35,071 bases of DNA from Bacteroidota bacterium (GTDB lineage: Bacteria; Bacteroidota; Ignavibacteria; Kapaibacteriales; UBA2268): the NCBI GenBank assembly GCA_004322215.1, contig SCSM01000005.1, forward strand, positions 1-35,071, given 5' to 3'. The stretch's first letter is position 1. Every line of letters starts with the position of its first letter. Positions 6,094-29,263 of the stretch are shown here, piece after piece. The notes under the pieces are model-generated. The model was not told the DNA's origin. It did not search any database and saw only the letters and a program-made list of their open reading frames with translations. The position numbers and the translations under genes were made by a program.

Positions 6094-9000
6094 TTACCTA
6101 ACTCTCACAAATTTTTCCGTCAGATTATAATTGCTATTCTTTATGGTAATAAAATACATACCCGAAAACACCTGATTGGCAGCCGAATCCGAGCCGTCCC
6201 AATTCAATTTGAATTTTCCTTCTTCGATTCTACCCGAATATAATTTCTTTACTATTTGTCCATATACATTCGTGATTTCAATGTCATAATAATCGGGTGA
6301 TTTATTATTAAACTCCAGATTGACAATACCCGAAGATGGATTAGGATAAATTTTAATATTTTTATTGTTTTGTGCGAAATCATCAACTGAAGTTACAACC
6401 AAAATTACGGTTTTGGTGGCTGAATCAACACATCCCTCTGGAGTGGTTTCGATAACCTTTACAAATCCTATGCTGGCGGTCTCCCAGGTTATCTCTACTG
6501 TCTGCCCGTCAGCAGCACCGTTGATTGTTCCGTTTATAGCTTTCCAAAAATAGGTGCCGTTAAACGAATTTGCAGAATATGAATAGGTTTCCCTTCTGTT
6601 TGCAGTATCTCCTCCGTTGATTAATGGGGATGGTAATGGCTTAATAGTTATGTTGAGTATTGCAGTATCCTTCGCCTGGTTTGCGGCAACTGTTTGGATA
6701 AGCCGTACATAGCCGCTGCTTGGCGAACCCCACCTGATTTTCACTAAAGTATCGGTCGCGCTGCCGACAACAGTACCATTGCTTGCAAACCAACTATTCG
6801 CTCTTCCCGATACGAAGGGAGTCGTGTATGTTGAAATATTGCGTTCGCAGCCGGTCTCGCTTCCGGTTATTGTAAGATTCAAATTGCTGATTGATATGTT
6901 CTTTTGTAATGAATCGGTACATCCGCCGGAATTAGTACACACCAGCTTTATATAACCTATACCCGTTCCACCCCAATTCACCAAAATATTCGGAGTATTA
7001 TTTGCACCGAATATAACTCCTCCCGAAACATACCATTTATATGAAACAATATCTGATAATGGACAGGAATAATTCTGCTGACTTCCCTTTTGAACTAAAT
7101 CCGGACCTGAAATAGTTACATCGGGCAGCGGATATATCATAACTTTTATCGAAGTCGAATCTGTGCATCCTGTTGTATCATTTGTCTCAATCAAGGTAAC
7201 TGTGCCGCTCGGATTGGATGTAATCCAGTCAACTGTGATTTCACTCAGGTTGTTTGCCCCGTTCAATGTGCCGTTTGTTACTCTCCATAAATATGAATGT
7301 CCTGTTTCCGGCAAAGTAGAATAAACTTTTGTACTATTCTTACATACATTTGGTAAACCATCTATTAACGGAACGGGCAAAGGAACGATTGCAACGACAT
7401 GTGTATGTGAATTTGTGCAACCTGTTATGTAATTTGTTTCGGTAAGTGTAACTGTACCGCTTGTATTTGTCGAAGCCCAATTCACAACGACTGAAGTATC
7501 GATATCCGAACCCATGATTATTCCACCGTCAACAGTCCATTTATATGAATGTCCGGGTGTGGTATATGTCCAATAAGTTTGAAAATTATTTCTGCAGGAA
7601 ACGGGACCACCCAGAATGAATGCTGCAGGGAGAGGATTTATTTCAATTGTCTTCGATGTACTGTTGGTGCATCCTGTTGTAATAATGGTTTCGGTAACAT
7701 TAATTGTGCCCATTGTATTTGATGTATTCCAGTCAACCGTAATACCTGATAAATTATTCGGCCCGACTATCGTTCCGCCTGTAACTGTCCAATTGTAAGA
7801 GTGTCCGGCGAAATAGGGAGTTGTAAATGTATGCGATGAATAATTGCAAGCTGCTGTAACTCCGCTGATTCTTGGAGCCGGCAGAACATTTATACTGATA
7901 TCATTCGAATTTGCATTACCGGTCGCACCGGGTGAATTGCTGTTTACTCTCACCCTGTAGCCAAATGCGGGAATTGTTGAAACCGGTAATGTCGCAGTAA
8001 TAGTTCCCGAACTCGATGAATTTATCGTCCCTATATCGACAGGATTTGAAAAATTTCCAACCCCGTTACTAAGTTGGGCAGTGAAAACATTATCTCCGAA
8101 AAATTGTCCGATTGCCTGGTATTGAATCGGGAAACTGACACCCGTGCATAATTGAGTTGGCACCGATGTAACATTTATAACATTACTGGGAGGACCTTCG
8201 TTACCTGTCGGATTCCTTTTGTAATAAACTGCTTTATATCCATCCCGCTGGTCTGTCCATATAACATGCACCACGTCTCCGCTGACTGCAACGAATGAAA
8301 AAGTAGGCGTTGATGCAGCACTAATTAATGTAATAGGATTTACCCATGTTGCTCCTCCATCGCTGGAGTGAATGTACGTTATTCCGTTGCCGGGCCAGAT
8401 GACGTGGACATTGGAACTGCTTCTTACAAGTGTAGGATAAACTGAAGCCGACGGGTCAAAGGAAAGCCGCTCTTCAGCTCCCCATGTAGCTCCGAAATCA
8501 GATGAATATAAATGGTATATATCATTATTGCCGTTTCTTTGGTCTGCCCAGACTAAGTCAACATCGCCGCCATAAACAGAAAGAGAAGGACTATATGCAA
8601 AAGTTGGAGAATTGGTCCTCTGCACTTCTGCTTCCCAGGTTACTCCTCCATTTGAAGAACGCCTGTAAAAAGTTTGCATGATTCCTGTTCGGTTATCGTT
8701 CCAGGCAATATGGACGCAATTTCCTCCTGCTGCTATCGTTGGGTCTTCAGAGCGTCCTGCTGCATTAGATATTTGAACCGCCGATTCCCAAATCGCACCG
8801 TTGTTTGTAGAACGGCGAAACCAAATCTCAGAATTTCCGCTTGTGTTACTGTTTAATGCAACATATACATTATTTCCTGCAACTGCAATCGAAGGCCACC
8901 AGGAATAGCTGCCGAGGGAAACCGGTGCTTCCCATGTGTTTCCCCCGTCTGTCGAACGTATGTAATTTGAGTTTGTCGTTCCGGCGGCACTATCCCGGTA

Positions 9001-9312
9001 TGCAATATGGACAATATTGCCCGATACCGCAATGGACGGATAGTCCGATTTGCCGGGTATTGGCGTCAACCTTGTGTCTGGTCCCCAGGTTAAGCCGGCA
9101 TCAGAGGAACGTTTGTAATAAATACCCATACCGTCTGTGGATTGAACCCATACTATGTGAATCACGTTGCCGTTCACTGCTATACATTTACCCATGTTCT
9201 CGTTGAGAGATGCATCGACCGTTGCAAAGGAAAGCTTTCGGTCCGGCTCCCACTGGGCAGCTATGTTAACAGTGAAAATGATAATAAGGATTAACGGCAA
9301 ATAAAACTTCAT
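6094..9312 (-). CDS. Secreted BNR propeller plus PKD-like repeat protein, T9SS substrate (1072 aa)
   Basis: The signal peptide is residues 1-20 (MKFYLPLILIIIFTVNIAAQ). Residues ~20-370 form a sialidase-type BNR propeller whose blades repeat SxDxGxTW and VHIxWxDxRxG. No catalytic sialidase residues could be identified, so a binding or structural propeller is likelier than an enzyme. An Ig-like module (~380-475) is followed by six ~85-residue PKD-like repeats, each with W.V.GG/NG, V.W and TGC motifs. The C-terminus (~985-1072) is a T9SS sorting domain (IYPNPSSGIVNLEF...SGMYFITIKN...). The start follows a GGGGGGAAT purine run. A terminator follows at 6038-6071. The protein shares the Ig-like and PKD-like modules with its upstream neighbour at 9433, pointing to duplication and module exchange. 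Likely role: surface adhesion or a surface scaffold. Confidence 0.9.
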   Translation of the reverse strand: MKFYLPLILIIIFTVNIAAQWEPDRKLSFATVDASLNENMGKCIAVNGNVIHIVWVQSTDGMGIYYKRSSDAGLTWGPDTRLTPIPGKSDYPSIAVSGNIVHIAYRDSAAGTTNSNYIRSTDGGNTWEAPVSLGSYSWWPSIAVAGNNVYVALNSNTSGNSEIWFRRSTNNGAIWESAVQISNAAGRSEDPTIAAGGNCVHIAWNDNRTGIMQTFYRRSSNGGVTWEAEVQRTNSPTFAYSPSLSVYGGDVDLVWADQRNGNNDIYHLYSSDFGATWGAEERLSFDPSASVYPTLVRSSSNVHVIWPGNGITYIHSSDGGATWVNPITLISAASTPTFSFVAVSGDVVHVIWTDQRDGYKAVYYKRNPTGNEGPPSNVINVTSVPTQLCTGVSFPIQYQAIGQFFGDNVFTAQLSNGVGNFSNPVDIGTINSSSSGTITATLPVSTIPAFGYRVRVNSNSPGATGNANSNDISINVLPAPRISGVTAACNYSSHTFTTPYFAGHSYNWTVTGGTIVGPNNLSGITVDWNTSNTMGTINVTETIITTGCTNSTSKTIEINPLPAAFILGGPVSCRNNFQTYWTYTTPGHSYKWTVDGGIIMGSDIDTSVVVNWASTNTSGTVTLTETNYITGCTNSHTHVVAIVPLPVPLIDGLPNVCKNSTKVYSTLPETGHSYLWRVTNGTLNGANNLSEITVDWITSNPSGTVTLIETNDTTGCTDSTSIKVMIYPLPDVTISGPDLVQKGSQQNYSCPLSDIVSYKWYVSGGVIFGANNTPNILVNWGGTGIGYIKLVCTNSGGCTDSLQKNISISNLNLTITGSETGCERNISTYTTPFVSGRANSWFASNGTVVGSATDTLVKIRWGSPSSGYVRLIQTVAANQAKDTAILNITIKPLPSPLINGGDTANRRETYSYSANSFNGTYFWKAINGTINGAADGQTVEITWETASIGFVKVIETTPEGCVDSATKTVILVVTSVDDFAQNNKNIKIYPNPSSGIVNLEFNNKSPDYYDIEITNVYGQIVKKLYSGRIEEGKFKLNWDGSDSAANQVFSGMYFITIKNSNYNLTEKFVRVR

Positions 9313-9432
9313 TATTCCCCCCTATGAAATTTATTTTACTAAAATCTAAAAAACAAATTAATTAATTTTTTCATTATTTCTAAAATATATAATACTCCCC
9401 ATTAAATTTTATTAAGTTATTTCAATCTTTGA

Positions 9433-12400
9433 TTATCTTAAAATCATTACCTTTTCTGCAGCCACTCCAAATTTACTGTTCAATTTTATAAAATAAATTC
9501 CCGAAGGAATCGATATTCCATCAATGTCATTTCCATCCCAATCTATATTCTGAGTGCCTTCGTTCAGCAACTGATTTCCAAAATCCTTGACGATTTCTCC
9601 TAATGAATTGACAATCTGAATACCGGCATTGACAGAACCCTTTGCCGTTATTTCAAGTTTAGCTTTCCCGTTCACCGGATTCGGAATTATTTTTATTCTG
9701 ATATTCGATGAACTAACAATATCATTTACTGAACTGACAAATAAGGCAACATTGATTTCATTAGAATCTGCACAGCCATCCGAATTGGTTTCAATTGCTT
9801 TCAAATTTCCAGAAGTACTTTCTCCCCAGTGTATATCTACTTCAGGAAGATTATCAGCACCGTTGAATGTGCCGCCTGTGACAAACCATTTATAAGTCGA
9901 ACCCTGATTATTTGCAACGGAATAATGTTCGTCTGCATTATTCAAACTTGAAGTTGCACCCTGTATTTTTGGCGATGGTGAATTAAATATGCTTACAATC
10001 TGATTAGCCGATGAACTACATCCGGAACCTGTAATTGTTTTAACTACCGTTATTGTTCCTGACGGTTCGCTAAGCCATCGCACCTGAACTTCAGCCATCT
10101 TATCATCGCTTACAATAAATCCGCCTTTGGCAATCCACTTAAATGTAAATCCGCTCACGGACTCAGTATAATATGTTTCGATTTTATTCGCACATGATGA
10201 ACTGTTGCCCGTAATCGGAGGAGCTGATGGCATTGGATAAATTGTTACCGAACTAAAGCTCGAATCCTTATACCCCGATGAATTTACTGTCATAACAAGT
10301 TTGATTGAACCGGCACCTATACTGTGCCATTGTACCTGAATTTCAGGTTGATTTACTGCCCCGATTATATCGCCTCCGCTGATATTCCAGTTATAAGAAC
10401 AATCATTAACATTAGAAGCAGAGTAATTTTCGACTGTATTTTCACATACCTGGCGGTGTCCTGAAAAATATGTTGAAAATGGTTTTATTGTAACAATATT
10501 GGAGGTGGAATCCCTGCATCCGCTCGAATCAACTGTCTGCACTAATGTAACAGTACCGGAAGGAGGTGAAAGCCATTTGATTTTTGTTTCTATATTATTG
10601 TTTTCGCCGACAATAGTGCCACCTGCAACTATCCAATGGAATGAATTCCCGAATACCGCAGTCGTTGAATATTCCTCGACACTGTCAGTATATGATACAT
10701 TAGTACCAGTGATTTGTGGTGCCGGTAATGCAAATACATTCACAATTTTTACTGCTGAATCTTTGCACAATGTTGCACTGTTTGTTTCTATCAGTGTAAG
10801 GGTTCCACTGGATTGCGCCGTGTTCCAGTAAACGTTTACATTAAGTTGATTGTCATTACCGACTATACTCCCCCCATTTACTTTCCACAGGTATGTATCA
10901 GCCGGTGTGAAAGTAGTCGAATAATTCTGATAACTCTTGTTGCATACATCGAATGTTCCCAAAACAGTTGGTGATGGCATTTTCAATATTGTAACTGTTT
11001 TCGATGCAGTAAGTTCACATCCCGTTGCCTCGATTGTTTCAGTTACCGAGACGACACCGAATGAATTTGAAGTATTCCAGTATATGTTGGCTGAATTTGC
11101 ATTTGAATTTTCTATATTACCACCGGAAACGCCCCATATATATGAATGTCCCGAAACCAAAGAGCAATTATATAAATGTGTATTCCTGTTGCAGGAAGTA
11201 TCTGCACCCGAAACCACCGGATTCGGTGCCGGATTAACTATTACAGATTTTATTGCCGAATCCCTGCACCCGGTTGCATTTACTGTTTCGGTCAGTGTAA
11301 CTGTTCCGCTTGGATTCGATGTGGTCCAATTTATCACAACGGAAGTAAGGTTAGCGCTGCCGACAACATTTCCTCCTGTTGCTGACCATGAATATGAATG
11401 TCCTAAAACACCGGTTGTTGTAAATGTTTGCGATGTATTTTGACACACGGCATCAGGACCGCTTATTACAGGTACAGGCAATGAATTGATTGTTATGTTT
11501 GTTCCGTTGTCGGTGCCGTTTACTGCAGGATTTGAACTGACAACCCTGATTCTGTATCCCGTACCTGCTGTTATATTATTCGGTATTGTGCAGTTAATCG
11601 TTCCGGAAGTAGTTGATGAAAGTGCACCTATGACAGTTGGCAATGTAAAACTACCAGAAGCATTAGATAATTGTGCAGTAAAAATATTCCCGGAATTAAA
11701 ATTTCCCGAAACAGTGTATGGAACAAGAATTGAAGCACCTGCACAAAGCGGTGAAGATACGGTTCCGGTTGTTATGCTGAGTCCTGCACCTGTAAAAGAT
11801 GATATATCCGCTTTGAAAACACCATTTCCGAAAGTTCCGAGAAATACTTTTGTGCCATTTATTGCAATTGCCCAGCAATTCATATTCAGCAATCCACCGT
11901 TCGCTGTTTGCCAGTTTGCCCCGTTATTTGACGAATAAAAAACTCCGTTCGATGTTGCAGCAATCAGAGTGCTGCCGATAACTGCAACAGATTTTGCCTG
12001 GCTTGTCATCCCATTATTTAAGTTTTGCCATGATGTTCCGTTATTTGTACTGACGCATACACCATTACTCGATGTACCTGCATATAAATTTCCTGCGGCT
12101 GAAGTCAAACAATTGATGTTCAAATTGGGTAATCCCGTATTTACCGGCTGCCAGTTTGCTCCATTATTTGTTGATATGTAAATTCCACCCCCGGTTGTAC
12201 CCGCAAACAGGTTTGCCCCATTCGATGTCATGCTCCTGACATTTGTGTTTGTCAATCCGTTATTCACGGGTGACCAGCTTAAGCCATCGTTTGTTGACAG
12301 GTAAACTCCATTCAAACTATTTCCATGGAATAAATTAGTCCCGATTAATGAAAAAGACCAGACCATTGACCTGGGATTTGTCTTGTTGACCACTGTATTC

Positions 12401-13572
12401 CATGAGCCGCCTAAATCAGAAGACCTGCAAACCTGTCCATTCCATAATCCTGCAAATAACGAACTGCTCTTTGCGATCAATGAATAACAATATAATTCCT
12501 CGAGGCCGCTGTTTATTTCGAACCAGGAAGTACCCCCGTTAATGGATTTAAATGCACCCCTGCCATAAGTGCCGGCGTATAAATCGTTTAAATCATCGTT
12601 AGCAAAATTAATAATAACTGAATTTGTCAATCCGTTTGTTATGTCATTCCAGATATTTCCTTCATCAGTCGAATAGAACGCTCCGCCATCGGTTCCTGCA
12701 TATAGATTTGAACCATTATAAAATAATTTCAGAATATATGTATTAACCAGACCGTTATTTGCAGGAAACCAATTCGCACCCCTGTCAAAAGAATAAAACA
12801 TTCCTCCGCCATTTGTCGCTGCAAATACTTTTGTAATGTTATTTTCAATATCGAGTACCGATAAATTTGTAATTCCATTGCTCGAATTGCTCCAGTTATC
12901 GCCTTTATCGGTTGATACAAATACACCGTTTGTATGCGACGCCGCATATAAATATAACCCATCGAAGGTTATTGAATTTATATCCGTACTTGTTAAGCCA
13001 CCGTTTCTCGATACCCATGTACTTCCATTATTTGATGATAAATACACTCCGCTGCTTGTTGCTAAATATAAGCTATCGCCGATGTTGATTATTTTATTAA
13101 TGCTTGCATTTGGCAATCCTGAATTGGACAACTGCCAGTTATTTCCATTATTCGTTGATTTAAATAATCCGGCTGTGGTTGTACCTGCAAAAACAAGTAG
13201 TCCTTTTTTCAAAAGCGATAGTACATTTAAATTCGATAAACCCGTATTCGATGCACTCCAGTTATCCCCATTGTTACTTGTCACGTATATGCCCCCGCCT
13301 GATGTTCCCGCAAATATCTGATTATCAACAACAATCATATCTTGGGTTCCCAATAACGGTAATCCGCTTCTCAGAGCTGTCCATGTATTTCCATTGTTTG
13401 AAGAACGGTAAATTCCGCTACCTGCTGCACCTGCAAACAACAATCCGTCTTTATATACAAAACTGGTTGTCATCCCGCCGTAAAATCCGCTATTTGCTTC
13501 AGTCCATTGAGCAAATGTGTGATTTACATTTATTATTATAAATCCAATAATAAGTACTAAAATATTTTTCAT
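9433..13572 (-). CDS. Secreted Ycf48/BNR-like propeller plus PKD-like repeat protein, T9SS substrate (1379 aa)
   Basis: The signal peptide is MKNILVLIIGFIIINVNHTFAQ. Residues ~25-585 hold about fourteen blades of ~40 residues following GGG(I/V)YxSTNNGxNWxxxNxGL, like photosystem-assembly Ycf48 or sortilin-type propellers. An Ig-like module follows (SPLCAGASILVPY, ~590-685). Next come seven PKD-like repeats of ~85 residues whose cysteine pairs are partly lost in the later copies. A T9SS sorting domain closes the protein (IIPNPVNGKAKLEI...SGIYFIKLN...MILR). The Shine-Dalgarno sequence GGAAGGAGGA just before the ATG is the strongest in this island, so high translation is expected. It lies 120 bases upstream of the related 1072-aa gene, which may share its transcript. 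Predicted location is the cell surface; ligand unknown. Confidence 0.9.
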   Translation of the reverse strand: MKNILVLIIGFIIINVNHTFAQWTEANSGFYGGMTTSFVYKDGLLFAGAAGSGIYRSSNNGNTWTALRSGLPLLGTQDMIVVDNQIFAGTSGGGIYVTSNNGDNWSASNTGLSNLNVLSLLKKGLLVFAGTTTAGLFKSTNNGNNWQLSNSGLPNASINKIINIGDSLYLATSSGVYLSSNNGSTWVSRNGGLTSTDINSITFDGLYLYAASHTNGVFVSTDKGDNWSNSSNGITNLSVLDIENNITKVFAATNGGGMFYSFDRGANWFPANNGLVNTYILKLFYNGSNLYAGTDGGAFYSTDEGNIWNDITNGLTNSVIINFANDDLNDLYAGTYGRGAFKSINGGTSWFEINSGLEELYCYSLIAKSSSLFAGLWNGQVCRSSDLGGSWNTVVNKTNPRSMVWSFSLIGTNLFHGNSLNGVYLSTNDGLSWSPVNNGLTNTNVRSMTSNGANLFAGTTGGGIYISTNNGANWQPVNTGLPNLNINCLTSAAGNLYAGTSSNGVCVSTNNGTSWQNLNNGMTSQAKSVAVIGSTLIAATSNGVFYSSNNGANWQTANGGLLNMNCWAIAINGTKVFLGTFGNGVFKADISSFTGAGLSITTGTVSSPLCAGASILVPYTVSGNFNSGNIFTAQLSNASGSFTLPTVIGALSSTTSGTINCTIPNNITAGTGYRIRVVSSNPAVNGTDNGTNITINSLPVPVISGPDAVCQNTSQTFTTTGVLGHSYSWSATGGNVVGSANLTSVVINWTTSNPSGTVTLTETVNATGCRDSAIKSVIVNPAPNPVVSGADTSCNRNTHLYNCSLVSGHSYIWGVSGGNIENSNANSANIYWNTSNSFGVVSVTETIEATGCELTASKTVTILKMPSPTVLGTFDVCNKSYQNYSTTFTPADTYLWKVNGGSIVGNDNQLNVNVYWNTAQSSGTLTLIETNSATLCKDSAVKIVNVFALPAPQITGTNVSYTDSVEEYSTTAVFGNSFHWIVAGGTIVGENNNIETKIKWLSPPSGTVTLVQTVDSSGCRDSTSNIVTIKPFSTYFSGHRQVCENTVENYSASNVNDCSYNWNISGGDIIGAVNQPEIQVQWHSIGAGSIKLVMTVNSSGYKDSSFSSVTIYPMPSAPPITGNSSSCANKIETYYTESVSGFTFKWIAKGGFIVSDDKMAEVQVRWLSEPSGTITVVKTITGSGCSSSANQIVSIFNSPSPKIQGATSSLNNADEHYSVANNQGSTYKWFVTGGTFNGADNLPEVDIHWGESTSGNLKAIETNSDGCADSNEINVALFVSSVNDIVSSSNIRIKIIPNPVNGKAKLEITAKGSVNAGIQIVNSLGEIVKDFGNQLLNEGTQNIDWDGNDIDGISIPSGIYFIKLNSKFGVAAEKVMILR

Positions 13573-15818: not shown

Positions 15819-16466
15819 ATGTTAGAGTTGCTGAAGCATGAGGTTCAGTATGTTGCCCTTGCAATAATGGGTTTGGTCTATATATCAAAAGTAATCTGGA
15901 TTCTCAGTTTTAAACCAATGAAGGAAAGAACTCCCGGAAGAGGAATGGAAAAGAAAGCAATCACTGCTTCATTCTTTTCACTGTTTATGCCCTGGACTAT
16001 GGAAAGCACTTCAAAGAAATGGTACAAATGGATCGAATTTGCAGTTTTTCATGTCGGTATTGCTGCCGCTATAATTGCATCTTTTATTATTCCCGAAGCT
16101 CCGGAAATGATGACAGCTCAGGTGATTGTTGTATTTAAAGTATTAATGGCTTTATCATTTTTCATTGTAATTCTTCGTTTGGGGAGACGCCTATTCTCGC
16201 CGGTTAATAAAATCATTAGCCATCCCGACGATTATTTCTCTGTTGCTATGATGGTTATCTGGTTCTTTGTTGCCTTTTTTGCTATGGATTTGAACGAAAG
16301 CCATTGGTCGTTCCCCGCATTTTTTGCTATCACGGCTTTTTTAATTGCTTATGTTCCGTTTAGTAAGATGTCGCATTATATTCTCTGGCCCTTTTCGAGG
16401 TATTATTTCGGAAAACACTTTGGTCATAGGGGAACTTACCCCAAAATAAAAGGGGAGTTCCTATAA
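15819..16466 (+). CDS. NarI/DsrM-like membrane cytochrome b subunit (215 aa)
   Basis: A predicted integral-membrane di-heme cytochrome b that would exchange electrons between the quinone pool and the iron-sulfur protein encoded next. Five hydrophobic segments lie near residues 12-31, 72-92, 100-120, 138-156 and 165-182. Histidines H78 (FAVFHVG) and H186 (KMSHYI), near helices two and five, are the best candidates for axial heme ligands by analogy with nitrate reductase gamma subunits. H135 and H162 are further candidates. The length (~215) fits NarI-type subunits. GAGG five bases before the ATG fixes the start. It is 33 bases upstream of the HdrD-like gene, as in many DsrMK/HdrED-like pairs. 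Heme number and direction of electron flow are inferred. Confidence 0.75.
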   Translation: MLELLKHEVQYVALAIMGLVYISKVIWILSFKPMKERTPGRGMEKKAITASFFSLFMPWTMESTSKKWYKWIEFAVFHVGIAAAIIASFIIPEAPEMMTAQVIVVFKVLMALSFFIVILRLGRRLFSPVNKIISHPDDYFSVAMMVIWFFVAFFAMDLNESHWSFPAFFAITAFLIAYVPFSKMSHYILWPFSRYYFGKHFGHRGTYPKIKGEFL

Positions 16467-16499
16467 TTAATAATTAATTTTTGAAAAGATATTTGGGAA

Positions 16500-18260
16500 A
16501 TGAAAATGTTAAATGGTCAAAAAAGTGAGAAAGCACAGAAAGCAACTGATTCCTTTAAAAGTAAGATGAACCGCCAGGCAATTCTGTCATTCGGTGTTTG
16601 TGTGCATTGCGGAATGTGTACAGAATCCTGCCACTATTACCTTGCGACAAAAGACCCGAAAATGGCTCCTGCTTATAAAGCCGACAGAGTCAGGAAACTT
16701 TATAAAAAATATTATGACTTTGCCGGCAGGTTGCTTCCGAAATGGGTTGGCGGTGGTGAGCTTGTTAATGATGATGATTTGAAAGAACTCATGGATATAG
16801 TTTTCGGTAGCTGTACTATGTGCCGCAGATGTACTTTTAATTGTCCAATGGGTGTTGACAAGGCATTGCTTATGAGAACGGGCAGAGCTATAATTTACGA
16901 GCAGGGATATGCTCCTCAAGGTGTCCTGGACGTTGCAAAAGACCAATGGGAAATCGGTAACCAGATGGGGATTTCGGATGAGGATTACCTCGAAACAATT
17001 GAATGGCTGAATGATGAAATCAAAGCAGAACTCGATGACGACACTGCCGAAATTCCACTCGACAAACCCAATTGCAACATTGTTTTTGCTGTGAATCCGA
17101 GGGAAATTAAATATGCTCCGATGAGTTTACTCGCTGCTGCTAAAATTTTCCACGTCGCGGGTGAATCCTGGACTATGTCCTCGACAAAGGGCTGGGACAA
17201 CACTAACTTCGGTTTGTTTGCAGGTGATAACAAGCTCGGTGCACACATGGGAAACCTCGTTTATGACACTGTCGAAAAACTTAACGGTAAAATGCTTGTT
17301 ACCTCAGAATGTGGACACGGCTACAGGGCTACAGTGTGGGAAGCACCAAACTGGGCGGCTCGCGATTTGAAATTCCCTATGAAAAGTTTCCTGGAAATTA
17401 TGGTTGACTATGTTAAATCCGGTAGAATAATTTTGGATAAAACTAAGAATCAGGTTTCTGTTACGTATCATGACCCCTGCAATCTTGCCCGTAGCGGAGG
17501 CATAACTGAAGAACCGAGATTTCTCCTTCGTGAAAGTGTTATGGATTTCAGGGAAATGTATCCCAACCGGGCTGATAACTTCTGCTGTACCGGCGGCGGC
17601 GGAGCTATGTCAATGTCCGAATATGCAAAGCGACGGCTTGAAACCGCTAAAATCAAAGCCGACCAATTGAAAACCACTGGTGCCCGGATTTGCTCGACTG
17701 CCTGCCACAATTGCGTTGACGGATTGACTGACTTAATTAAATTTTATAAACTTGGTATGAAGGTGAATCTCGTGGGTGAATTAGTTGCAGATGCAATCGT
17801 TTGGGAGAAGGTGCCTGTAGTTCCCGTTCTCGAAAAAGTTGTCGAGCCGCTTGCTCCGTTCACAGTGCTTGTTATTGACGATGAGCCCGATGTGGTTACA
17901 TTCCTTTCGACATTGTTCCAGGACAACGGTTATAATACTTTGGAAGCAACGAGTGCGGCTGAGGCGTTCACATTAATGAAAACAAAGAAACCGGATTTGA
18001 TTACTCTCGATTTGATTATGCCGGGTGTCTCGGGACTTGATTTCTACAAGGATTTGAAAACTGACGGTGTTAATAAAGATATACCTGTTGTTGTAATCAG
18101 TGGCGTCAATCCTGACAATCCCGGAATGTACGACATGCGTAAGCTTCAGTTTGAACATTCACTGCCGAAACCCGAAGGATACGTGGAAAAACCAATCGTA
18201 AAAGAAGAATTATTAATGATAATTGATAAAGTGCTTGACCATTACAGGCATAAGAAGTAA
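16500..18260 (+). CDS. HdrD/DsrK-like Fe-S oxidoreductase fused to a response-regulator receiver domain (586 aa)
   Basis: The N-terminus has two [4Fe-4S] motifs: C34/C37/C40/C44 (CVHCGMCTESC) and C105/C108/C111/C115 (CTMCRRCTFNCP). Residues ~190-435 correspond to the CCG region of HdrD/GlpC proteins. Its second CCG unit is complete (C327, C362-C363, C402, C405) and could hold the non-cubane active-site cluster, while the first has only C271 and looks degenerate. From ~454 on there is a full receiver domain: D460/D461, phospho-acceptor D504 (LDLIMPG), S534 and K564 (EKP). All catalytic receiver residues are present, so phosphorylation is expected. A membrane cytochrome b gene precedes it and a histidine kinase gene follows 27 bases later. 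The start could also be the ATG at 16506. HdrD-like chemistry is confident; substrate (thiol/disulfide or other) is not. Confidence 0.85.
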   Translation: MKMLNGQKSEKAQKATDSFKSKMNRQAILSFGVCVHCGMCTESCHYYLATKDPKMAPAYKADRVRKLYKKYYDFAGRLLPKWVGGGELVNDDDLKELMDIVFGSCTMCRRCTFNCPMGVDKALLMRTGRAIIYEQGYAPQGVLDVAKDQWEIGNQMGISDEDYLETIEWLNDEIKAELDDDTAEIPLDKPNCNIVFAVNPREIKYAPMSLLAAAKIFHVAGESWTMSSTKGWDNTNFGLFAGDNKLGAHMGNLVYDTVEKLNGKMLVTSECGHGYRATVWEAPNWAARDLKFPMKSFLEIMVDYVKSGRIILDKTKNQVSVTYHDPCNLARSGGITEEPRFLLRESVMDFREMYPNRADNFCCTGGGGAMSMSEYAKRRLETAKIKADQLKTTGARICSTACHNCVDGLTDLIKFYKLGMKVNLVGELVADAIVWEKVPVVPVLEKVVEPLAPFTVLVIDDEPDVVTFLSTLFQDNGYNTLEATSAAEAFTLMKTKKPDLITLDLIMPGVSGLDFYKDLKTDGVNKDIPVVVISGVNPDNPGMYDMRKLQFEHSLPKPEGYVEKPIVKEELLMIIDKVLDHYRHKK

Positions 18261-18287
18261 ATTTGTCTTTTTGCATCAGTCGAAGCA

Positions 18288-19697
18288 ATGGACTACGAAT
18301 CGTTGAAAATACCGGATATGCTTCTTTTCGAAGAAGTGCCCTGCTACATATCCCTCCAGGATAGAAGCCACACAATTATTAAAGCAAACCGAAGATTCCG
18401 CGAAACTTTTGGCGACAGAATCGGTGAACCATGCTATAAGGTTTACAAACTCCGTGATGAAAAGTGTAAGGTCTGCCCGATGGACAGGGTATTTACTGAT
18501 GGCCACATTCACGAGAGCGAGGAAATAGTTTTTTCGCAGGAAGGTTTCCCGATTAATGTAATAGTGAATGTTGCACCTGTCCGCGATGATTCTGGCAACA
18601 TCGTTGCGATTATGGAGATGGCAACCGACATAACCGAGACAAAGCGATTGCAAAGAAAAATCGAGGAAAGCTCCGAAAAATACCGAACCCTTTATGACCA
18701 GGTGCCATGCTATATTTCAGTGCAGGCAAGGAATTTCCGGCTTATAGATGTCAACAAGCAATTCAAGGATGAGTTCGGCGGCTCACCCGGTGAGTACTGC
18801 TACAAAGTTTATAAGAAAAGGGATGAGAGATGTGAAGTCTGCCCTGTCGCTCAGGTCTTTGAAGATGGAAAAGTTCATTCGAGCGAGGAAATCGTTACCT
18901 CCAAAGACGGAAAACCGATTAACATGCTCGTCTATGCTACTCCCATCGCCGATTATGACGGGAACATTGTTTCCGTTATGGAAATGTCCACAAACATCAC
19001 AAACCTGATGAACACTAAAACACAGATGACATTGCTGGGACAGCTTGTTGCCAATCTCGCTCATACAATCAAGGGAATTGTTACTGGTCTCGAGGGTGGT
19101 ATGTATGTCGTGGAATCCGGCTTCAGGAACAAGAAAGACGAGCATGTCAAAAAGGGCTGGGACATGGTTCAGCGTAATATCGAACGTATTTCTCATTTGG
19201 TTCTCGATATGCTTTACTTTGCCAAAGACAGGGTTCCGGAAGTGGAAAAAGTATGCTTAGACAAATTCTGCTATGAAATTATTGATTTATACGAAAAGAA
19301 ATTTAAAGATAATAACATCTGCACTAAGCTTAATATACAAGAATTGAAGCCCTATACCGGGGATAAAAAATCACTTTACACATTAATTCTCACATTGGTT
19401 GAAAATGCAATCCAGGCATGCACCTGGAATAAAGATAAACCGTTACATGAAATCGGTATTTCACTTAGCGAAACCGATAGCATAATAATGCTCGAAGTTT
19501 CAGATGACGGAATCGGCATTGCACACGATGTGAAAAGCAAGTTGTTCACCACTATGTACACTACCAAGGGGAGCGGCGGAAGCGGCTTCGGACTCATGAT
19601 AGTAAAGAAAATCATTGACGAGCATAAGGGCGAAATCACGGTCGAATCCGAACCGGGACATGGGGCGAAGTTTGTTGTGAAGCTGCGAAGAAACTGA
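18288..19697 (+). CDS. Soluble histidine kinase with two tandem cysteine-motif PAS domains (469 aa)
   Basis: There is no signal peptide or membrane segment, so it is cytoplasmic. Two PAS domains (~10-118 and ~130-238) share CYKVYKxRDExCxVCP: C49/C60/C63 in the first and C171/C182/C185 in the second, plus a PCYIS cysteine in each (C19, C141). The arrangement suggests metal, Fe-S or dithiol redox sensing. The H-box is LAHTIKG with H259. The ATPase domain has N373 (ENAIQA), SDDGIGI and the GSGGSGFGL loop. No transmitter-linked receiver is attached; the obvious partner is the receiver fused to the upstream HdrD-like protein, 27 bases away in the same operon. Kinase identity is sure; ligand and cysteine role are inference. 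Confidence 0.9.
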   Translation: MDYESLKIPDMLLFEEVPCYISLQDRSHTIIKANRRFRETFGDRIGEPCYKVYKLRDEKCKVCPMDRVFTDGHIHESEEIVFSQEGFPINVIVNVAPVRDDSGNIVAIMEMATDITETKRLQRKIEESSEKYRTLYDQVPCYISVQARNFRLIDVNKQFKDEFGGSPGEYCYKVYKKRDERCEVCPVAQVFEDGKVHSSEEIVTSKDGKPINMLVYATPIADYDGNIVSVMEMSTNITNLMNTKTQMTLLGQLVANLAHTIKGIVTGLEGGMYVVESGFRNKKDEHVKKGWDMVQRNIERISHLVLDMLYFAKDRVPEVEKVCLDKFCYEIIDLYEKKFKDNNICTKLNIQELKPYTGDKKSLYTLILTLVENAIQACTWNKDKPLHEIGISLSETDSIIMLEVSDDGIGIAHDVKSKLFTTMYTTKGSGGSGFGLMIVKKIIDEHKGEITVESEPGHGAKFVVKLRRN

Positions 19698-20171: not shown

Positions 20172-21677
20172 ATGACTATGAATAATATGAATGATTTGAA
20201 AAAAATTGAGAAACTGAAAATTCTTTCTCCCGGTTGGTTTGCTTTCAACTCCTCGAGAGCAAAATGGACTTACCCGCCACACCTAAAACTCATAGACAAA
20301 CACCTGCTCGATTTATCACAGAGAAAAATCAGCAAGCTGATTGTCAATATGCCGCCAAGACACGGCAAATCCGAGCTTATTTCGAAATACTTCCCCGCAT
20401 GGTACCTCGGCAGGTATCCCAATCACAATGTCATTCTCGTGTCCTACAGCGCCAGCTTCGCGGTCAGCTGGGGACGAAAAGTGAAATCTCTTATCAATGA
20501 ATTCGGTGATGATTATTTCGGAATAAAGATAAATCCCGATGCAACATCCAGTGCATCATTTGAAATTAGTCCCTCATTTCCATTCATCAAAGCCGGTGGA
20601 ATAATGTCAAGTGTCGGTGCCGGTGGACCAATCACAGGTAAAGGTGCTGACCTGCTAATCATTGACGACCCAATTAAAAACGACGAAGAGGCACATTCGA
20701 AAACTATCCGCGACAACATCTGGGATTGGTTCACATCAACCGCACTGACTCGTCTGGAGCCGAACGGAATAGTTGTCATCATCATGACACGCTGGCACCG
20801 GGACGACCTGTGCGGAAGATTGACAGCCCAGCAGGAAACCGAAAAGTTCAAGCCCAATGCCGAATTTGATGATTGGAAAATCCTGAACCTGCCTGCCACC
20901 GCCGGAGAAAACGACATGCTCGGCAGAAAGCCCGAAGAGCCATTGTGGGAAAAGCGATTCCCACCTGAAAAGCTGGAGTCAATCAAAAATTCAATCGGCT
21001 CATACTGGTTCTCTGCTCTCTATCAGCAATCCCCGTCACCCGAAGGAAGCGGCATATTCAAAAAAATGAATTTCAGGTATTTCTCGACTGACGGAACTAC
21101 CTGCATAATGAAAACAGGCGAGCAGGAACAAAAACTTTGCAGCGAAAGCAAGTGCCGAACTTATGCCACGATTGACCTGGCTGTCAGCGACAAGGAGACT
21201 GCCGATTTCACCGTCGCAATTATTTTCAAAGTAACTAAAGACAATGAAATTCTCATATATGACATCATCCGCCAAAGATTTTCCGGCGCCGACCATCCTG
21301 CACTCATCGAGCAGATTTTCAACCGCTGGAAACCTGTTTCTCTCGGAATCGAAAGCACCCAATACCAGATTATGCTCGTTCAGATGCTATTAAGAAAAGG
21401 CTACCCGGTTGTTGCATTAAAACCGAGAGGTGACAAATCAACGAGAGCCATGCCTATGGCAACCAAGCTCGAGAACAATATCGTTTATTTCCGTGAAAAC
21501 GCACCCTGGCTCCTCGATTTCGAGGATGAGCTTGTTCAATTCCCAAACGGCACTCACGATGACCAGGTAGATGCCTTTGCATACATCAGCGAAATGGTCA
21601 TGCCAATATCCAATGGCAGTGTTTCCGGCTCACGCATAAGAGAGATACCTGAAAATGGTATTGCGGTCGGCTTTTAA
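20172..21677 (+). CDS. Orphan phage-type terminase large subunit (501 aa)
   Basis: Large terminases pump DNA into phage heads and cut it. The ATPase half shows Walker A PPRHGKS (61-67), Walker B LLIIDDP (161-167) and the coupling motif TRWHRDD (206-212). The C-terminal RNase-H-like nuclease has D335 (ATIDLA), E394 (GIEST) and D463/D464/D467 (HDDQVD), so both activities appear intact. Length is normal for the family. No small terminase, portal, capsid or tail gene lies on either side: a histidine kinase precedes it and a convergent response regulator follows. It may be the last piece of a prophage, a domesticated terminase, or cargo of a mobile element. The start is uncertain, since several ATGs cluster at the N-terminus without a ribosome-binding site. 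Confidence 0.88.
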   Translation: MTMNNMNDLKKIEKLKILSPGWFAFNSSRAKWTYPPHLKLIDKHLLDLSQRKISKLIVNMPPRHGKSELISKYFPAWYLGRYPNHNVILVSYSASFAVSWGRKVKSLINEFGDDYFGIKINPDATSSASFEISPSFPFIKAGGIMSSVGAGGPITGKGADLLIIDDPIKNDEEAHSKTIRDNIWDWFTSTALTRLEPNGIVVIIMTRWHRDDLCGRLTAQQETEKFKPNAEFDDWKILNLPATAGENDMLGRKPEEPLWEKRFPPEKLESIKNSIGSYWFSALYQQSPSPEGSGIFKKMNFRYFSTDGTTCIMKTGEQEQKLCSESKCRTYATIDLAVSDKETADFTVAIIFKVTKDNEILIYDIIRQRFSGADHPALIEQIFNRWKPVSLGIESTQYQIMLVQMLLRKGYPVVALKPRGDKSTRAMPMATKLENNIVYFRENAPWLLDFEDELVQFPNGTHDDQVDAFAYISEMVMPISNGSVSGSRIREIPENGIAVGF

Positions 21678-21812: not shown

Positions 21813-22496
21813 CTATCCTTTCACAAATTTATAACCTACCGTATGAACCGTTAAAATATGCTTTGGCTGGGAAGGGTCATCCTCTATTTTTTTTCTGAGT
21901 GTCAATATAAAATTATCTACAGTGCGGGTTGTCGGGTAGCTTTCATATCCCCATACATCATCGAGAAGCATATCTCGCGATATTATTTCTCCTTCTCTTT
22001 CTGTAAAATACTTCAATATTTGAAATTCTTTTGCAGATAAATTCAATTGCTCATTATTTTTGAAAGCTTCCAGTCTTTTGAAATTTATTTTCAGGTTTCC
22101 GCACTCGAACGATTCTATTTCTTTTTTACCGGGTTCTGTCCTTCTCAAGAGGGCTTTAATCCTCATTTTGAGTTCCATAATACTAAACGGCTTGGTCAAA
22201 TAATCATCGGCTCCCGTTTCAAAACCCAGCACCTTATCAATTTCTTCTTTTTTAGCTGTCAACATTAAAACCGGTGTATTAATATTCAATTTTCTCAGGT
22301 CACGGCATACATCCAAACCGTTTTTCGATGGAAGCATAATGTCGAGTATAATTACATTCGGATTTGCGGTTTTAGCAAGCTGAAATCCTTTATCACCGTC
22401 AGTAGCAGTAATTAACTCGTAATTATCTTCTTCCAGCGAGGCCTGTAAACCAATCAGGATAGCCGGGTCATCTTCAATTATCAGAATTTTTTTCAT
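21813..22496 (-). CDS. OmpR/PhoB-family response regulator (227 aa)
   Basis: The receiver domain (~1-120) has D9/D10, phospho-acceptor D52 (IILDIMLPS), T80 and K102 (TKPF). The C-terminal winged helix (~130-226) has the family signatures LSAKEFQILKYF, VWGYES and RTVDNFILTLRKKI, ending HTVGYKFV. It is a two-domain transcription factor of standard length with all phosphorylation residues. Its start lies inside the end of the upstream kinase gene (23-base overlap), so the two are co-transcribed and probably translationally coupled. Target genes cannot be read from the sequence. Confidence 0.95.
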   Translation of the reverse strand: MKKILIIEDDPAILIGLQASLEEDNYELITATDGDKGFQLAKTANPNVIILDIMLPSKNGLDVCRDLRKLNINTPVLMLTAKKEEIDKVLGFETGADDYLTKPFSIMELKMRIKALLRRTEPGKKEIESFECGNLKINFKRLEAFKNNEQLNLSAKEFQILKYFTEREGEIISRDMLLDDVWGYESYPTTRTVDNFILTLRKKIEDDPSQPKHILTVHTVGYKFVKG

Positions 22497-24927
22497 AACT
22501 TACTCCTTTAGGAAAATAAAGAGTGAAAGTACTTCCCTCTCCAACTAAACTTTCGACTTCTACCCTGCCTTTATGTGCTGCCATAATGTGTTTTACCAGG
22601 GATAAACCTATACCAGTACCGCCTGTACTGGATGAATTAGCATCTTTTGAACGGAAAAACGGAACAAATATATTATCTTTATCCTGAGCCGAAATTCCAA
22701 TGCCTTTGTCTGAAAAACTAATACATATATCACCTTTTGTTTGCCACATTCTAATTGAAATTTCTTTTCTGTTAACAGAATATTTTATTGCATTCGTAAG
22801 TAAATTTAAATAAACTTCTGTAATGGCGTCATCATCGCAGGTATAGCTATAGTCAAGTTCATCACATTCGAGATTTAGTATAAAATTCTGCATTTTCAAT
22901 TCATAAGATAATGATTTAAGCACTGAATCGAGAAGAAATCTCAAATTAACATCCGCTGATTTATATTCTTTCGCACCCCTTTCTATCCTTGCAAAATCGA
23001 GAACGTTACTGATAAGCCGGTTCAACCTGTCACATTCACCACGAATGATATCGAGATATTCCGCTTTTTTTAATTCTGTTACATTCTGCTTGTATCTCAT
23101 CAATTCCGCAAAAAGTTTAATTGAAGTCAGAGGTGTTTTCAATTCGTGCGAAACACTCGAAACAAAATAAGACTTCAATTGATTTAACTCTTCCAATTTC
23201 CTTTTCTCTTCCTGCTGCATGAATATCTCTCTTTCTAAAATTAACCGGTGAATTGCTTTGCCCGATTCTCTGACAATTGTTGTTAGAACTGCAATGTCCT
23301 CGCTGGTGTACATGTAAAATTCTTTCTTTTTGCCAATAAGTAATGCATTTATAAAATGCCTGTCTTCTGAAATATAAAAAACAATGAGTGAAGCATTTAT
23401 TGATTTCAAAAGTGATTCTCTGCAAAGAAATTCGTTTCCTTCTTCAATACTATCCTTGAGAGATATCGGCAGATTGGCTTGATTATCAACTATTTCTTTA
23501 TTTAACTGAACAAAAATATCGTCATTAAATTCCAAATTTAATTTCTCTAAAGCCACAAAATTGTTTGCCAAAGGGTCATAATACAGGAATCCAAGGGAAT
23601 CAGCAGATATTATTTCATTAGTTGTAATTCTCACTAAATCTGCAACTTGTTCGAAAGAATTACAGTTTTTAATACCTGTAATAAAATTCAATTGCACCCG
23701 GTTGATATTATATTTTACCTTAAAAATATTCCTGTCTATAATTTTTTGAATAACTATCTTAGTTGGCTGGAAAAGCAGTGCAATAATAATCGCTCCGACA
23801 ACAGAAGGCAGATTTGACAGATTATCAGGCATGATTGATGTGCCTATGTAAAAAATTCCTCCATATAATATCATAAGTAAGATAATTGCAGAAACATAAA
23901 CAGTACTTCGGCTGATAATTAAATTGATATCAAATAATCTGTACTTTATGATTGACAGAAAAAATGTCACAGGAGATATTGCCGAAGTGAGTATCATTAT
24001 AGATTCACTTATGAATGGCTTATCAAAAATCAATTGAGGTAAAATCCATAACAATACATATACAGATGGACCAAAACAAAAACCCAGAATAATCCATAAA
24101 AGCTTTTGCCTGATATATTCTTCTTTATATCTCCGATAAGAATGTAAAAAATTAAGTAAAACAAAAATCAATGCCGGGGCAAAGAATATTTTTGTTAAAT
24201 AGTAATGAATACCGACATACAGATAAATACCATAGCTCATTTTCTGAACTATTGCAAGATAGATTAAAATTATAAGAAAAATCGAAGCTGCTCCTAAAAA
24301 TATATATAACGGAATAGTGAGTTTTGACAGATTATCCCATTTTTTTCTTGGGAAAATAAAGCTGAAATGCACCAAAATAACCGGGGTGGCGAGGATTGAT
24401 ATTTCATATATGCTTCTCATTACAAAATTGAGTTTGAAGTCAAATACCGACATATCCCCCCAGGTCAATACAATCAATAATGTAATAGACAGCATCAACC
24501 AATGGAATACATAAGAAAAGGTTTCTTCAGGTTTTTTTATTAATACAAATATTGCAGGTAAAACAAACATGAACCCTACAAATATTAAAACTATTATATA
24601 AAAAATATCGTAATAATGAATAAGGGCTATTTTAGCGACCATCGGTTTCCCGTTTCTTTCGAGTCCAAGTTTTACAATAGTTCCGGCAGGCATATTATCA
24701 CAGTAAAATTCAAGAATATGAGAATCAGATATTTCAACTTCATTCATACTTGTCAATGTATCCCCAATTTTTATTCCGTTGAGGTCCTTATTAAAAACCA
24801 AATTCTTTTTATCGTAATTCGGAATATCGGATTTGCGGGATACACTGATAATATTTATAGCACACATTGCGAGCAATAGCACATCGGCGGCAAGTATTAT
24901 TGTAATTTTTAAACTCGTTTTTTTCAT
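22474..24927 (-). CDS. Multi-pass histidine kinase with PDZ-like periplasmic domain and GAF-like domain (817 aa)
   Basis: The order is: one membrane helix (~8-28); a ~65-residue PDZ-like segment (GIKIGDTLTSMNEVEISD...) predicted outside the cytoplasm; about nine further helices to ~400 including YRLFDINLIISRSTVY, a motif familiar from 7TM-type kinases; a GAF-like region (~415-560); and a short coiled coil. The kinase core has H594 (SVSHELKTPL), NLLTNAIKYS, SDKGIGI and STGGTGIGLSLVKHI. All catalytic boxes are intact. It is probably a sensor of a peptide or envelope state, with the PDZ-like segment as ligand-binding part. Its partner is the overlapping response regulator. The start has only a weak AGAG upstream. 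The number of helices is by eye. Confidence 0.9.
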   Translation of the reverse strand: MKKTSLKITIILAADVLLLAMCAINIISVSRKSDIPNYDKKNLVFNKDLNGIKIGDTLTSMNEVEISDSHILEFYCDNMPAGTIVKLGLERNGKPMVAKIALIHYYDIFYIIVLIFVGFMFVLPAIFVLIKKPEETFSYVFHWLMLSITLLIVLTWGDMSVFDFKLNFVMRSIYEISILATPVILVHFSFIFPRKKWDNLSKLTIPLYIFLGAASIFLIILIYLAIVQKMSYGIYLYVGIHYYLTKIFFAPALIFVLLNFLHSYRRYKEEYIRQKLLWIILGFCFGPSVYVLLWILPQLIFDKPFISESIMILTSAISPVTFFLSIIKYRLFDINLIISRSTVYVSAIILLMILYGGIFYIGTSIMPDNLSNLPSVVGAIIIALLFQPTKIVIQKIIDRNIFKVKYNINRVQLNFITGIKNCNSFEQVADLVRITTNEIISADSLGFLYYDPLANNFVALEKLNLEFNDDIFVQLNKEIVDNQANLPISLKDSIEEGNEFLCRESLLKSINASLIVFYISEDRHFINALLIGKKKEFYMYTSEDIAVLTTIVRESGKAIHRLILEREIFMQQEEKRKLEELNQLKSYFVSSVSHELKTPLTSIKLFAELMRYKQNVTELKKAEYLDIIRGECDRLNRLISNVLDFARIERGAKEYKSADVNLRFLLDSVLKSLSYELKMQNFILNLECDELDYSYTCDDDAITEVYLNLLTNAIKYSVNRKEISIRMWQTKGDICISFSDKGIGISAQDKDNIFVPFFRSKDANSSSTGGTGIGLSLVKHIMAAHKGRVEVESLVGEGSTFTLYFPKGVSYEKNSDN

Positions 24928-28286: not shown

Positions 28287-28375
28287 AAAAGACCTCAAGC
28301 ATTATTCATTAATTTAAATGATTTTGAATTCTATTTTCCGCAAAAAAGCGGTTTTATTTCTTAAAAAAACAGTCA

Positions 28376-29263
28376 TCAGAACGACAAAAGCATGCTCAAT
28401 ACGGGACCAGCGGGCTTTATTGTATAAGAACTCCCTTCGAACTTTGTATTCATCTCATTTACTATAGGGTATGTGAAAAGCAAGCCCAAATAGTGAGGAA
28501 AAATATTAAACCCTAAAATGAGAACAGGATAAGTCTCTGAAACACTGATATCTATACCTCCATTAGAATATAAGTAGCCGCCTGTAACATTAGTAAAATG
28601 GTAACTGGTATTCCCGACCCCAAGCCCGGCAAATGGTCCCCTATAATTAAAGCCGTAAGGCATGTACAAGAAAAAGTATGTGTGTGAGCTGACACTACTC
28701 TCTCCTTCGAATGTAGAACCCCAACCACCAATGAACATGATAGAAGGATTTTCAAAAAGCGGAACCTGAATGTAAAACGACAATGCGATGTTGCTGTTGC
28801 TTTTGCTTCGGGTGAGTTGATTTAATTCTGATAAATCATTAAATATCAGTCCGACCGAAACATCGAAGCATATAGTCTCAAACATCGGACGTGATAGCCC
28901 TGTTGTATTTGGTGAAAGTGGAAGGGCATCAGTACCACGCATTTCATCCCAATGATTAATCCATCCAACATACTGGTTTACAAGTTCAGGTGAGATAGCA
29001 AAAGTAGAGTCCCGGAGCGTATCTTCAGTGGATTTTAACTTGACTGTTACCCACAAGCTGTTGTCCTCTGCCCTATAAAACGAGCAAGAGTAGAAGTTTT
29101 CGATGCTTTGAAATAGTCCGTATTTTGCTGCTTCTGTTGAATCAATGTCTTCACCGACACTGGGACTTATCACAACCAAGCGTTTGTCCTGGGCAGTTCC
29201 ACCAACTGGAAAAAGAGATGTGATGATGAATAATAAAGCACAGATGAAAATTTTCACTTTCAT
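28376..29263 (-). CDS. Predicted outer-membrane protein of unknown function (295 aa)
   Basis: The start is the ATG at 29263: AAGGAGG lies seven bases upstream, and the product then begins with a clean signal peptide (MKVKIFICALLFIITSLFPVGGTAQ). Upstream in-frame starts would put a charged tail before it. Residues ~30-140 look like a globular N-terminal part. The remainder alternates aromatic and small residues in Gly-rich strands (FIGGWGSTFEGESS, GPFAGLGVGNTSYHF) and ends LSMLLSF, with the C-terminal Phe typical of outer-membrane barrels. I recognise no family. It lies 89 bases upstream of the lipoprotein gene in the same direction, so a shared role in the envelope is possible. Confidence 0.75.
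   Translation of the reverse strand: MKVKIFICALLFIITSLFPVGGTAQDKRLVVISPSVGEDIDSTEAAKYGLFQSIENFYSCSFYRAEDNSLWVTVKLKSTEDTLRDSTFAISPELVNQYVGWINHWDEMRGTDALPLSPNTTGLSRPMFETICFDVSVGLIFNDLSELNQLTRSKSNSNIALSFYIQVPLFENPSIMFIGGWGSTFEGESSVSSHTYFFLYMPYGFNYRGPFAGLGVGNTSYHFTNVTGGYLYSNGGIDISVSETYPVLILGFNIFPHYLGLLFTYPIVNEMNTKFEGSSYTIKPAGPVLSMLLSF

Follow-up and report, generated by a model that had tools for sequence, protein, structure and literature searches.

A receiver-fused iron-sulfur oxidoreductase gene that travels with a cysteine-PAS histidine kinase gene: a candidate for direct two-component control of electron transfer

The known two-component systems mostly act on transcription, chemotaxis or second messengers, and CheY, CheB, RssB and PleD are response regulators with outputs that do not bind DNA. 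The Hmc and Tmc complexes of sulfate reducers (HmcEF, TmcBC), like DsrMK and DsrMKJOP, combine a cytochrome b with an iron-sulfur (Fe-S) subunit of the CCG type, a group of proteins that includes disulfide and trisulfide reductases. Here we describe three consecutive plus-strand genes at positions 15819-19697 of a 35,071-nucleotide stretch of a Bacteroidota genome (assembly GCA_004322215.1, contig SCSM01000005.1; the whole stretch is called the window), which encode a cytochrome b, a Fe-S oxidoreductase fused to a receiver domain and a histidine kinase with two cysteine-bearing PAS domains (Cys-PAS kinase). The locus is similar to Hmc and Tmc in having a cytochrome b and a CCG Fe-S subunit of the same superfamily, but its receiver is fused to the Fe-S subunit and the recurrent operon has no multihaem cytochrome gene of its own; the only recurrent multihaem-like gene, at loci L041, L043 and L072, belongs to a nearby DsrMKJOP-like cluster. 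As in CheY, CheB, RssB and PleD, the receiver is intact and no DNA-binding domain was found in a Pfam scan of the fusion, but its output would be an N-terminal Fe-S oxidoreductase. We consider it somewhat probable that the module is a quinone-linked membrane oxidoreductase under direct two-component control, a receiver-fused variant of Hmc/Tmc/DsrMK-type complexes; the quinone linkage we infer from the enzyme family.

ArcB is a redox kinase with a Cys-PAS domain. For EvgS, one report proposes the PAS cysteines as a redox switch and describes a need for ubiquinone (PMC8174306). The window kinase is like both in having PAS cysteines of the kind proposed as redox sensors, and unlike them in that each of its two PAS domains bears three conserved cysteines and that no membrane anchor or other transmembrane part is apparent on inspection without a predictor. 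Kinase and response regulator genes lie beside Hmc/Tmc in Desulfococcus multivorans and are said to resemble those of D. vulgaris (PMC5109826), and a legend describing hdr loci of Desulfobacterium autotrophicum names a response regulator, a histidine kinase and a CheY-like regulator (PMC2702500). Tmc matters for hydrogen use in D. alaskensis; the report on it, which deals with Tmc and Hmc, never uses the term histidine kinase and mentions a response regulator once (PMC4215793). In the open-access literature we found no title on the fusion among those listed, no paper on DVU0258/DVU0259, and no paper on a heterodisulfide reductase fused to a receiver domain with a histidine kinase; none of six terms looked for occurs in PMC3333781.

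The intergenic gaps of the trio are 33 and 27 bases (Table 1), and the initial annotation of these genes as cytochrome b, Fe-S-receiver fusion and Cys-PAS kinase is borne out by Pfam, NCBIfam and the reading frames, with exact coordinates. The fusion is not a chance or artefactual joining, since fusions 93% identical to it are present in two other assemblies of the same genus. Neither is it a curiosity of the window, as one scan of named genome contigs kept 80 loci of which 28 are fusions; fusion counts are lower bounds. Leaving out a duplicate (L080, the same contig as L046) and adding the window, L041-L046 and two loci of a Deltaproteobacteria group (L216, L217), the count comes to at least 36 different fusions, spread over ten or more phylum-level names. 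Most loci are metagenome-assembled, some bins are perhaps misassigned, and loci rather than independent events are counted. Names in the record titles listed include Kapaibacterium, Melioribacteraceae, Sumerlaeota, Acidobacteria, Zixiibacteriota, Phycisphaerae, Calditrichaeota, Syntrophaceae and other Deltaproteobacteria, Electryonea/Tariuqbacter, LCP-89 and Elusimicrobia. Seven of 60 related genomes, the organism's own included, carry the fusion, and a search of 395 genomes of its phylum at E 1e-40 found none besides its own.

Among the 36 fusions, a cytochrome b gene lies upstream wherever upstream sequence is in view. Of the 35 fusions with visible downstream sequence, 33 are followed directly, on their own strand, by a Cys-PAS kinase gene, a count that leaves out L074, whose sequence ends 116 bases downstream of the fusion, and includes L061 and L078, whose kinases are cut by contig ends and were recognised by the PAS part only. 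This answers in the affirmative the question, raised with the initial annotation, of whether HdrD/DsrK-receiver fusions neighbour Cys-PAS kinases. At L077 the kinase is 1.5 kb away on the other strand. A Cys-PAS kinase was seen within 5 kb of only one (L092) of 51 unfused enzyme relatives, L088 not being counted; the sequence downstream reaches 5 kb in 36 of the 51 and is shorter in 15. At the level of sequence, receiver and Fe-S subunit form one covalent chain, the active site of the receiver shows strict conservation, and a kinase with three conserved cysteines in each PAS domain accompanies it.

A tree built by a quick method places the 36 fusions and ten unfused proteins in one clade (support of 99 by the Shimodaira-Hasegawa-like approximate likelihood ratio test), apart from 42 unfused proteins and from TmcB/HmcF, and the fused label needs four changes on this tree. 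With L074, L089 and L090 dropped for having too little sequence, 43 of the 46 loci in the clade are evaluable: 36 have both receiver and kinase, one (L083) has the receiver only, none has a kinase without a receiver of the DVU0259-like family, and six have neither. The 36 comprise 34 fused loci together with L088 and L092, which have a separate receiver; at L088 enzyme, receiver and kinase are three adjacent genes in the same order as in the fusion loci. The six with neither are L091, L093, L094, L095, L096 and L106, of which L094, L096 and L106 have less than 6 kb of downstream sequence, while close to L091, L093, L095 and L096 there are generic matches to receivers or kinases of other types, which were not counted. 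The lack of both in these six represents few events rather than six, because five of them share a seven-row clade with L092; L091 lies elsewhere. No Cys-PAS kinase was seen beside the 42 unfused proteins of the other clade, 12 of which have less than 5 kb downstream. Since six of the 43 evaluable clade loci have neither partner, the enzyme persists without receiver and kinase, and by this comparison the two are an add-on to a predicted enzyme that exists without them in other lineages. As a separate observation, genome G003 is of the window's genus, yet its fusion (L043) is only 51-52% identical to that of the window and groups with an Electryoneota protein; the pattern at L043 and at L046 (genome G028) suggests horizontal replacement of the fusion.

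The receiver scores 68.8 bits with Response_reg over residues 456-558. Its best-scoring receiver model among those listed is NF045717 (DVU0259 family) at 93.7 bits, under the cut-off of 160, so that the domain is DVU0259-like without belonging to that family. D460, D461, D504 and K564 are invariant in all seven fusions of the nearest relatives, and the phosphotransfer residues (acidic pair, phospho-Asp, Ser/Thr and Lys) are kept in 36 of 36 fusions, L083 included; the complete C-terminal receiver of the initial annotation is thus intact, with D504 in place. We compared the alpha1 helix, which we take from HK853-RR468 to be the kinase-contact surface. Fused receivers and 33 freestanding ones (the window's own PhoB-type receiver included) are 47% alike in alpha1 and 36% over the rest of the domain, versus 18% and 25% with 25 other receivers picked as controls by low receiver-profile score. 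Given the make-up of these two sets, we take the likeness as supporting evidence only.

Table 1. Features of the module in the window and of related clusters elsewhere in the same genome
Feature	Position	Strand	Basis
Membrane cytochrome b subunit, HmcE/TmcC-like, distantly NarI-like, 215 amino acids	15819..16466	+	NCBIfam, alignment, profile search
Whole fusion gene, 586 amino acids	16500-18260	+	Pfam Fer4_8, CCG, Response_reg
Fe-S oxidoreductase part of fusion, residues 1-437, TmcB/HmcF/DsrK-like	16500..17810	+	Pfam, NCBIfam, alignment, fold match
Flexible linker, residues 439-450	17814..17849	+	Predicted local distance difference test (pLDDT) below 50 (AlphaFold)
C-terminal receiver, D504 putative phospho-acceptor, DVU0259-like	17850..18257	+	Pfam Response_reg, NF045717
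Histidine kinase, two Cys-PAS domains, HisKA-like helix pair with H259, HATPase_c, 469 amino acids	18288..19697	+	Pfam, alignment
L009, Hmc-like cluster, with Cys-PAS kinase and freestanding receiver	L009:3639-8325, contig C24		
L010, DsrMK-like cluster, with Cys-PAS kinase and freestanding receiver	L010:7639-11681, contig C24		
L011, DsrMKJOP-like cluster	L011:4548-9514, contig C2		By eye

The enzyme part has two CX2CX2CX3C clusters and a CCG site, with Pfam Fer4_8 and CCG above cut-off, and its Fe-S ligand cysteines either never vary or reach 90% conservation or more across 49 aligned rows chosen from 81 available (28 fusions, 52 unfused proteins and the window). These two 4Fe-4S motifs and the CCG motif with conserved cysteines are those of a CCG (HdrB/HdrD-type) Fe-S oxidoreductase. 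The fusion scores 318.7 bits with HmcF, 299.9 with TmcB and 260.5 with DsrK, below the equivalog cut-offs of 750, 735 and 400 and so outside all three families. Of the original label of HdrD-like Fe-S oxidoreductase, the second half stands and TmcB/HmcF/DsrK-like fits better than the first, Pfam finding one CCG domain. DsrMK and DsrMKJOP share the cytochrome b and CCG architecture, with the DsrK model reaching 260 bits, but besides the score under cut-off the organism's own genome has a separate DsrMKJOP-like cluster, L011. An AlphaFold model of the fusion (mean pLDDT 89.4) gave Foldseek matches to EtfD and HdrB for the enzyme part and to PhoB and DivK for the receiver, the top match being Mycobacterium smegmatis EtfD (PDB 9ojn, E 9.4e-18) at only 20% identity. 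The reaction of an electron-transferring flavoprotein (ETF):quinone oxidoreductase, which this fold match brings to mind, was rejected, no ETF-like family being seen by eye among neighbours common to at least three loci, where no dedicated search was made. The upstream subunit scores 33 bits with HmcE and 31 bits with TmcC, far under the cut-offs, and has no match in a Pfam scan; H78 and H186 are invariant in 28 aligned relatives, and its profile matches NarI of PDB 3egw marginally (E 0.005). We keep the name cytochrome b of the first annotation; any kinship with NarI would be distant.

Both cysteine motifs that had been read in the PAS domains of the kinase were found, CYKVYKLRDEKCKVCP and CYKVYKKRDERCEVCP. 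HATPase_c scores 80.8 bits, and HisKA falls under the Pfam cut-off (21.8 versus 26.9 bits). In 23 aligned two-PAS kinases, an alignment that leaves out the single-PAS kinases of L062, L063 and L077 and the cut ones of L061 and L078, residues C49, C60, C63, C141, C171, C182, C185 and H259 are invariant, as are the ATP-binding positions N373, D406, G408, G410, G431, G433 and G435. The sensor part thus has seven invariant cysteines, three per PAS domain and C141; an eighth, C378, belongs to the ATPase part. The kinase model (mean pLDDT 84.7, predicted template modelling score 0.45) matches the folds of WalK, NifL and HK853, and a PDB sequence search with the PAS pair gave weak matches (best E 0.00035).

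The association of this kinase type with the enzyme superfamily extends beyond the fusions. We searched 11 genomes, the organism's own and ten picked for holding the module, with the kinase profile, and all 17 matches above 300 bits lie within about 4 kb of an enzyme-superfamily gene: nine at fusions, one at the split locus L088 and seven elsewhere. Five weaker matches (181-220 bits) start at model position 184 or later and do not cover the first PAS domain. In the organism's own genome, contig C24 has two further Fe-S-subunit relatives beside Cys-PAS kinases and freestanding receivers (L009 and L010), whose best model is DsrK at 292 and 321 bits, under cut-off. No kinase or receiver is present among reading frames of at least 120 amino acids at L011, a cluster from which the organism probably has dissimilatory sulfur metabolism.

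A search of 148 genomes from the phylum to which G432 belongs, its record being titled 'Deltaproteobacteria', found 15 DVU0259-type receivers in 11 genomes at 1e-30, and none in 14 control genomes. The stretches around these 15 receivers include an enzyme gene in 10, one about 6 kb away, and a Cys-PAS kinase in 12, one at 74 bits. Among the enzymes, L205 is HmcF above cut-off (925 bits; cut-off 750), L206 and L207 are TmcB above cut-off (845 and 839 bits; cut-off 735), and L212 and L213 are just under the TmcB cut-off. In likeness to the window module, L205, L206 and L207 have freestanding DVU0259-family receivers, with a Cys-PAS kinase also at L205 and L207.

In its relatives the operon is usually larger. 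Of 34 evaluable fusions, 26 have a freestanding receiver as a neighbour, a macro-domain gene precedes cytochrome b in 26 of 36 loci (e.g. L075:3267-3803; three of the ten misses have no upstream sequence), and a match to an Rrf2 regulator or to a cysteine-rich helix-turn-helix (HTH-Cys) regulator lies near 15 of 36. One example of each family checked with Pfam gave Macro 85.8, Rrf2 104.2 and HTH_17 45.9 bits. The freestanding receivers are mostly short, about 120-155 amino acids, and the two scanned with Pfam (L084 and L088) contain Response_reg only. No freestanding receiver, macro gene or regulator was seen near the fusion in the window or in its two closest relatives, G001 and G002, and we therefore regard the window as a minimal form of the operon; the sole macro gene of its genome is on another contig. 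The original statement that the operon has no separate regulator gene is correct for these three genomes and does not carry over to many of the relatives. A second enzyme-superfamily gene lies within 6 kb at 7 of 36 loci (L041, L061, L063, L072, L076, L077 and L083).

On the reading that we favour, the kinase would read the cellular redox state through its PAS cysteines (by a disulfide, a Fe-S cluster or similar), autophosphorylate on H259 and then phosphorylate D504 of the fused receiver, and the phosphorylated receiver on its flexible tether would alter either the flow of electrons at the Fe-S subunit or the docking of partners there. Of these steps, the one from D504 to electron flow has the weakest support. 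Where a freestanding receiver is encoded next to the kinase, as in most relatives, the kinase probably acts on that receiver too, so that control would be branched. The receiver, the kinase sensor and the Fe-S part are all presumably active, since the acid pocket, the seven cysteines and the Fe-S ligands are conserved. That the kinase phosphorylates the receiver on the oxidoreductase, as first proposed, is the best reading because the kinase co-occurs with it (33/35), the active site is kept in 36/36 and the kinase-contact helix is shared; the direction of control assumed with that proposal could also be the reverse. The accompanying claim that control is post-translational instead of transcriptional finds no support, given the freestanding receivers and regulator matches of the relatives. 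The wiring of kinase to receiver to enzyme in the window module is likely but unproved.

Several observations weigh against such direct control. HisKA kinases follow the phospho-histidine with Glu or Asp (the H+1 rule), and the H-box here mostly has no such acidic residue: the position after H259 is G in 19, T in 2, S in 1 and D in 1 of the 23 kinases, hence acidic in one, and autokinase activity therefore cannot be taken for granted. Sequences chosen for their cysteine motif served as seeds of the Cys-PAS profile and the 23 kinases were chosen by two matches to that profile, a circularity by which the cysteine conservation is partly built in; likewise, choosing the alpha1 controls by low score to the receiver profile is circular. 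The linker is variable and poorly predicted, with 4-37 residues between enzyme match and receiver match in the 36 fusions, and no fixed receiver-enzyme interface is visible. L083 keeps the fused receiver without a nearby kinase, and its genome gave no match to the PAS-covering kinase profile at E 1e-45. Regulator genes lie near 15 of 36 fusions. In the Deltaproteobacteria group searched, 5 of the 15 DVU0259-type receivers have a kinase with no enzyme gene in view, L206 has a receiver with its TmcB and no clear Cys-PAS kinase, and the DVU0259 model at loose cut-offs matches 12 of the 14 control genomes. Lastly, the response regulators beside Hmc in D. multivorans are called DNA-binding in print (PMC5109826).

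It is possible, if unlikely, that the signal runs in reverse and the oxidoreductase is a redox antenna, in which quinone-pool electrons would travel by way of cytochrome b and the CCG site and so reach the PAS cysteines of the kinase, with the fused receiver holding the kinase close and the output leaving through the freestanding receiver. The invariance of three cysteines per PAS domain and of C141 in the 23 two-PAS kinases would suit such a route, as would the disulfide and trisulfide reductases among CCG proteins, the HdrB fold match, a flexible tether fit for docking, and the freestanding receiver available as an output at 26 of 34 fusions; EvgS, with its PAS cysteine switch and ubiquinone need, is a precedent (PMC8174306). 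Against this, a freestanding receiver that could carry the output is absent from the operon in the window and in G001 and G002, and docking alone needs no intact phosphorylation site, yet the site is kept in 36 of 36. The enzyme also persists in relatives that have neither kinase nor receiver (the six clade loci, with no kinase seen at the other clade's 42), so it has a role beyond feeding the kinase, and for this reason we rank a purely sensory role lower. A closed loop, in which the PAS cysteines swap electrons with the CCG site through receiver docking while the kinase phosphorylates the receiver and so gates electron flow, is a tentative idea that we would not expect to hold. If it were true, it would define a class of response regulators with a respiratory Fe-S enzyme as output, in many phyla and also present as separate parts in the Hmc/Tmc-type complexes of sulfate reducers.

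Rather improbable is that the fused receiver serves as a phosphate sink or relay while the true output is gene expression through Rrf2, HTH-Cys or a distant regulator. The second receiver at 26 of 34 evaluable fusions, the regulator matches near 15 of 36 and the D. multivorans description of DNA-binding regulators are all in keeping with this, but the freestanding receivers are mostly short, with Response_reg only in the two scanned, and at 8 of 34 evaluable loci, one of them the window, a second receiver is not in view. A passenger fusion whose receiver is no longer phosphorylated would account for L083 and its missing kinase neighbour, and is very doubtful given that all 36 fusions, from many phyla and with L083 among them, retain the active-site residues.

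A receiver in a respiratory Fe-S subunit, kept with its kinase, would link redox sensing directly to the control of an enzyme, and the recurrence of this gene set across many phyla suggests that bacteria may switch electron-transfer enzymes directly by phosphorylation. If control is of this direct kind, the kinase and receiver encoded next to Hmc and Tmc should act, at least partly, on the complexes themselves.

Some further features of the surroundings were recorded. The macro-domain protein is a recurrent operon member beside a redox enzyme. The HTH protein near fusions has a cysteine-rich middle (for example at L075:2454-3239, at L065:5884-6651 and at L083, the last with three matches) and a C-terminal stretch that by eye is receiver-like without the acidic pair, Pfam naming only the HTH. 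A DsrM-like gene recurs by eye at L041:70-3865, L043:200-3995, L072:14199-17719 and L076, with DsrJ- and DsrO-like genes, also by eye, at L041, L043 and L072; the module can evidently sit beside a DsrMKJOP-like cluster. In the window, a gene for a phage terminase large subunit lies at 20172-21677 and is the only phage gene that a scan of window proteins recognised. A PhoB-type (OmpR-type) regulator and a kinase at 21813-24927, on the other strand and 2.1 kb downstream of the trio, form a separate two-component pair. Two proteins of 536 and 313 amino acids at 26688-29317 have no Pfam match at E 0.001. Positions 397-13572 encode large proteins that carry either BNR repeats or sorting tails for type IX secretion, and two of them are related to proteins encoded near the fusion in G001, G002 or G003.

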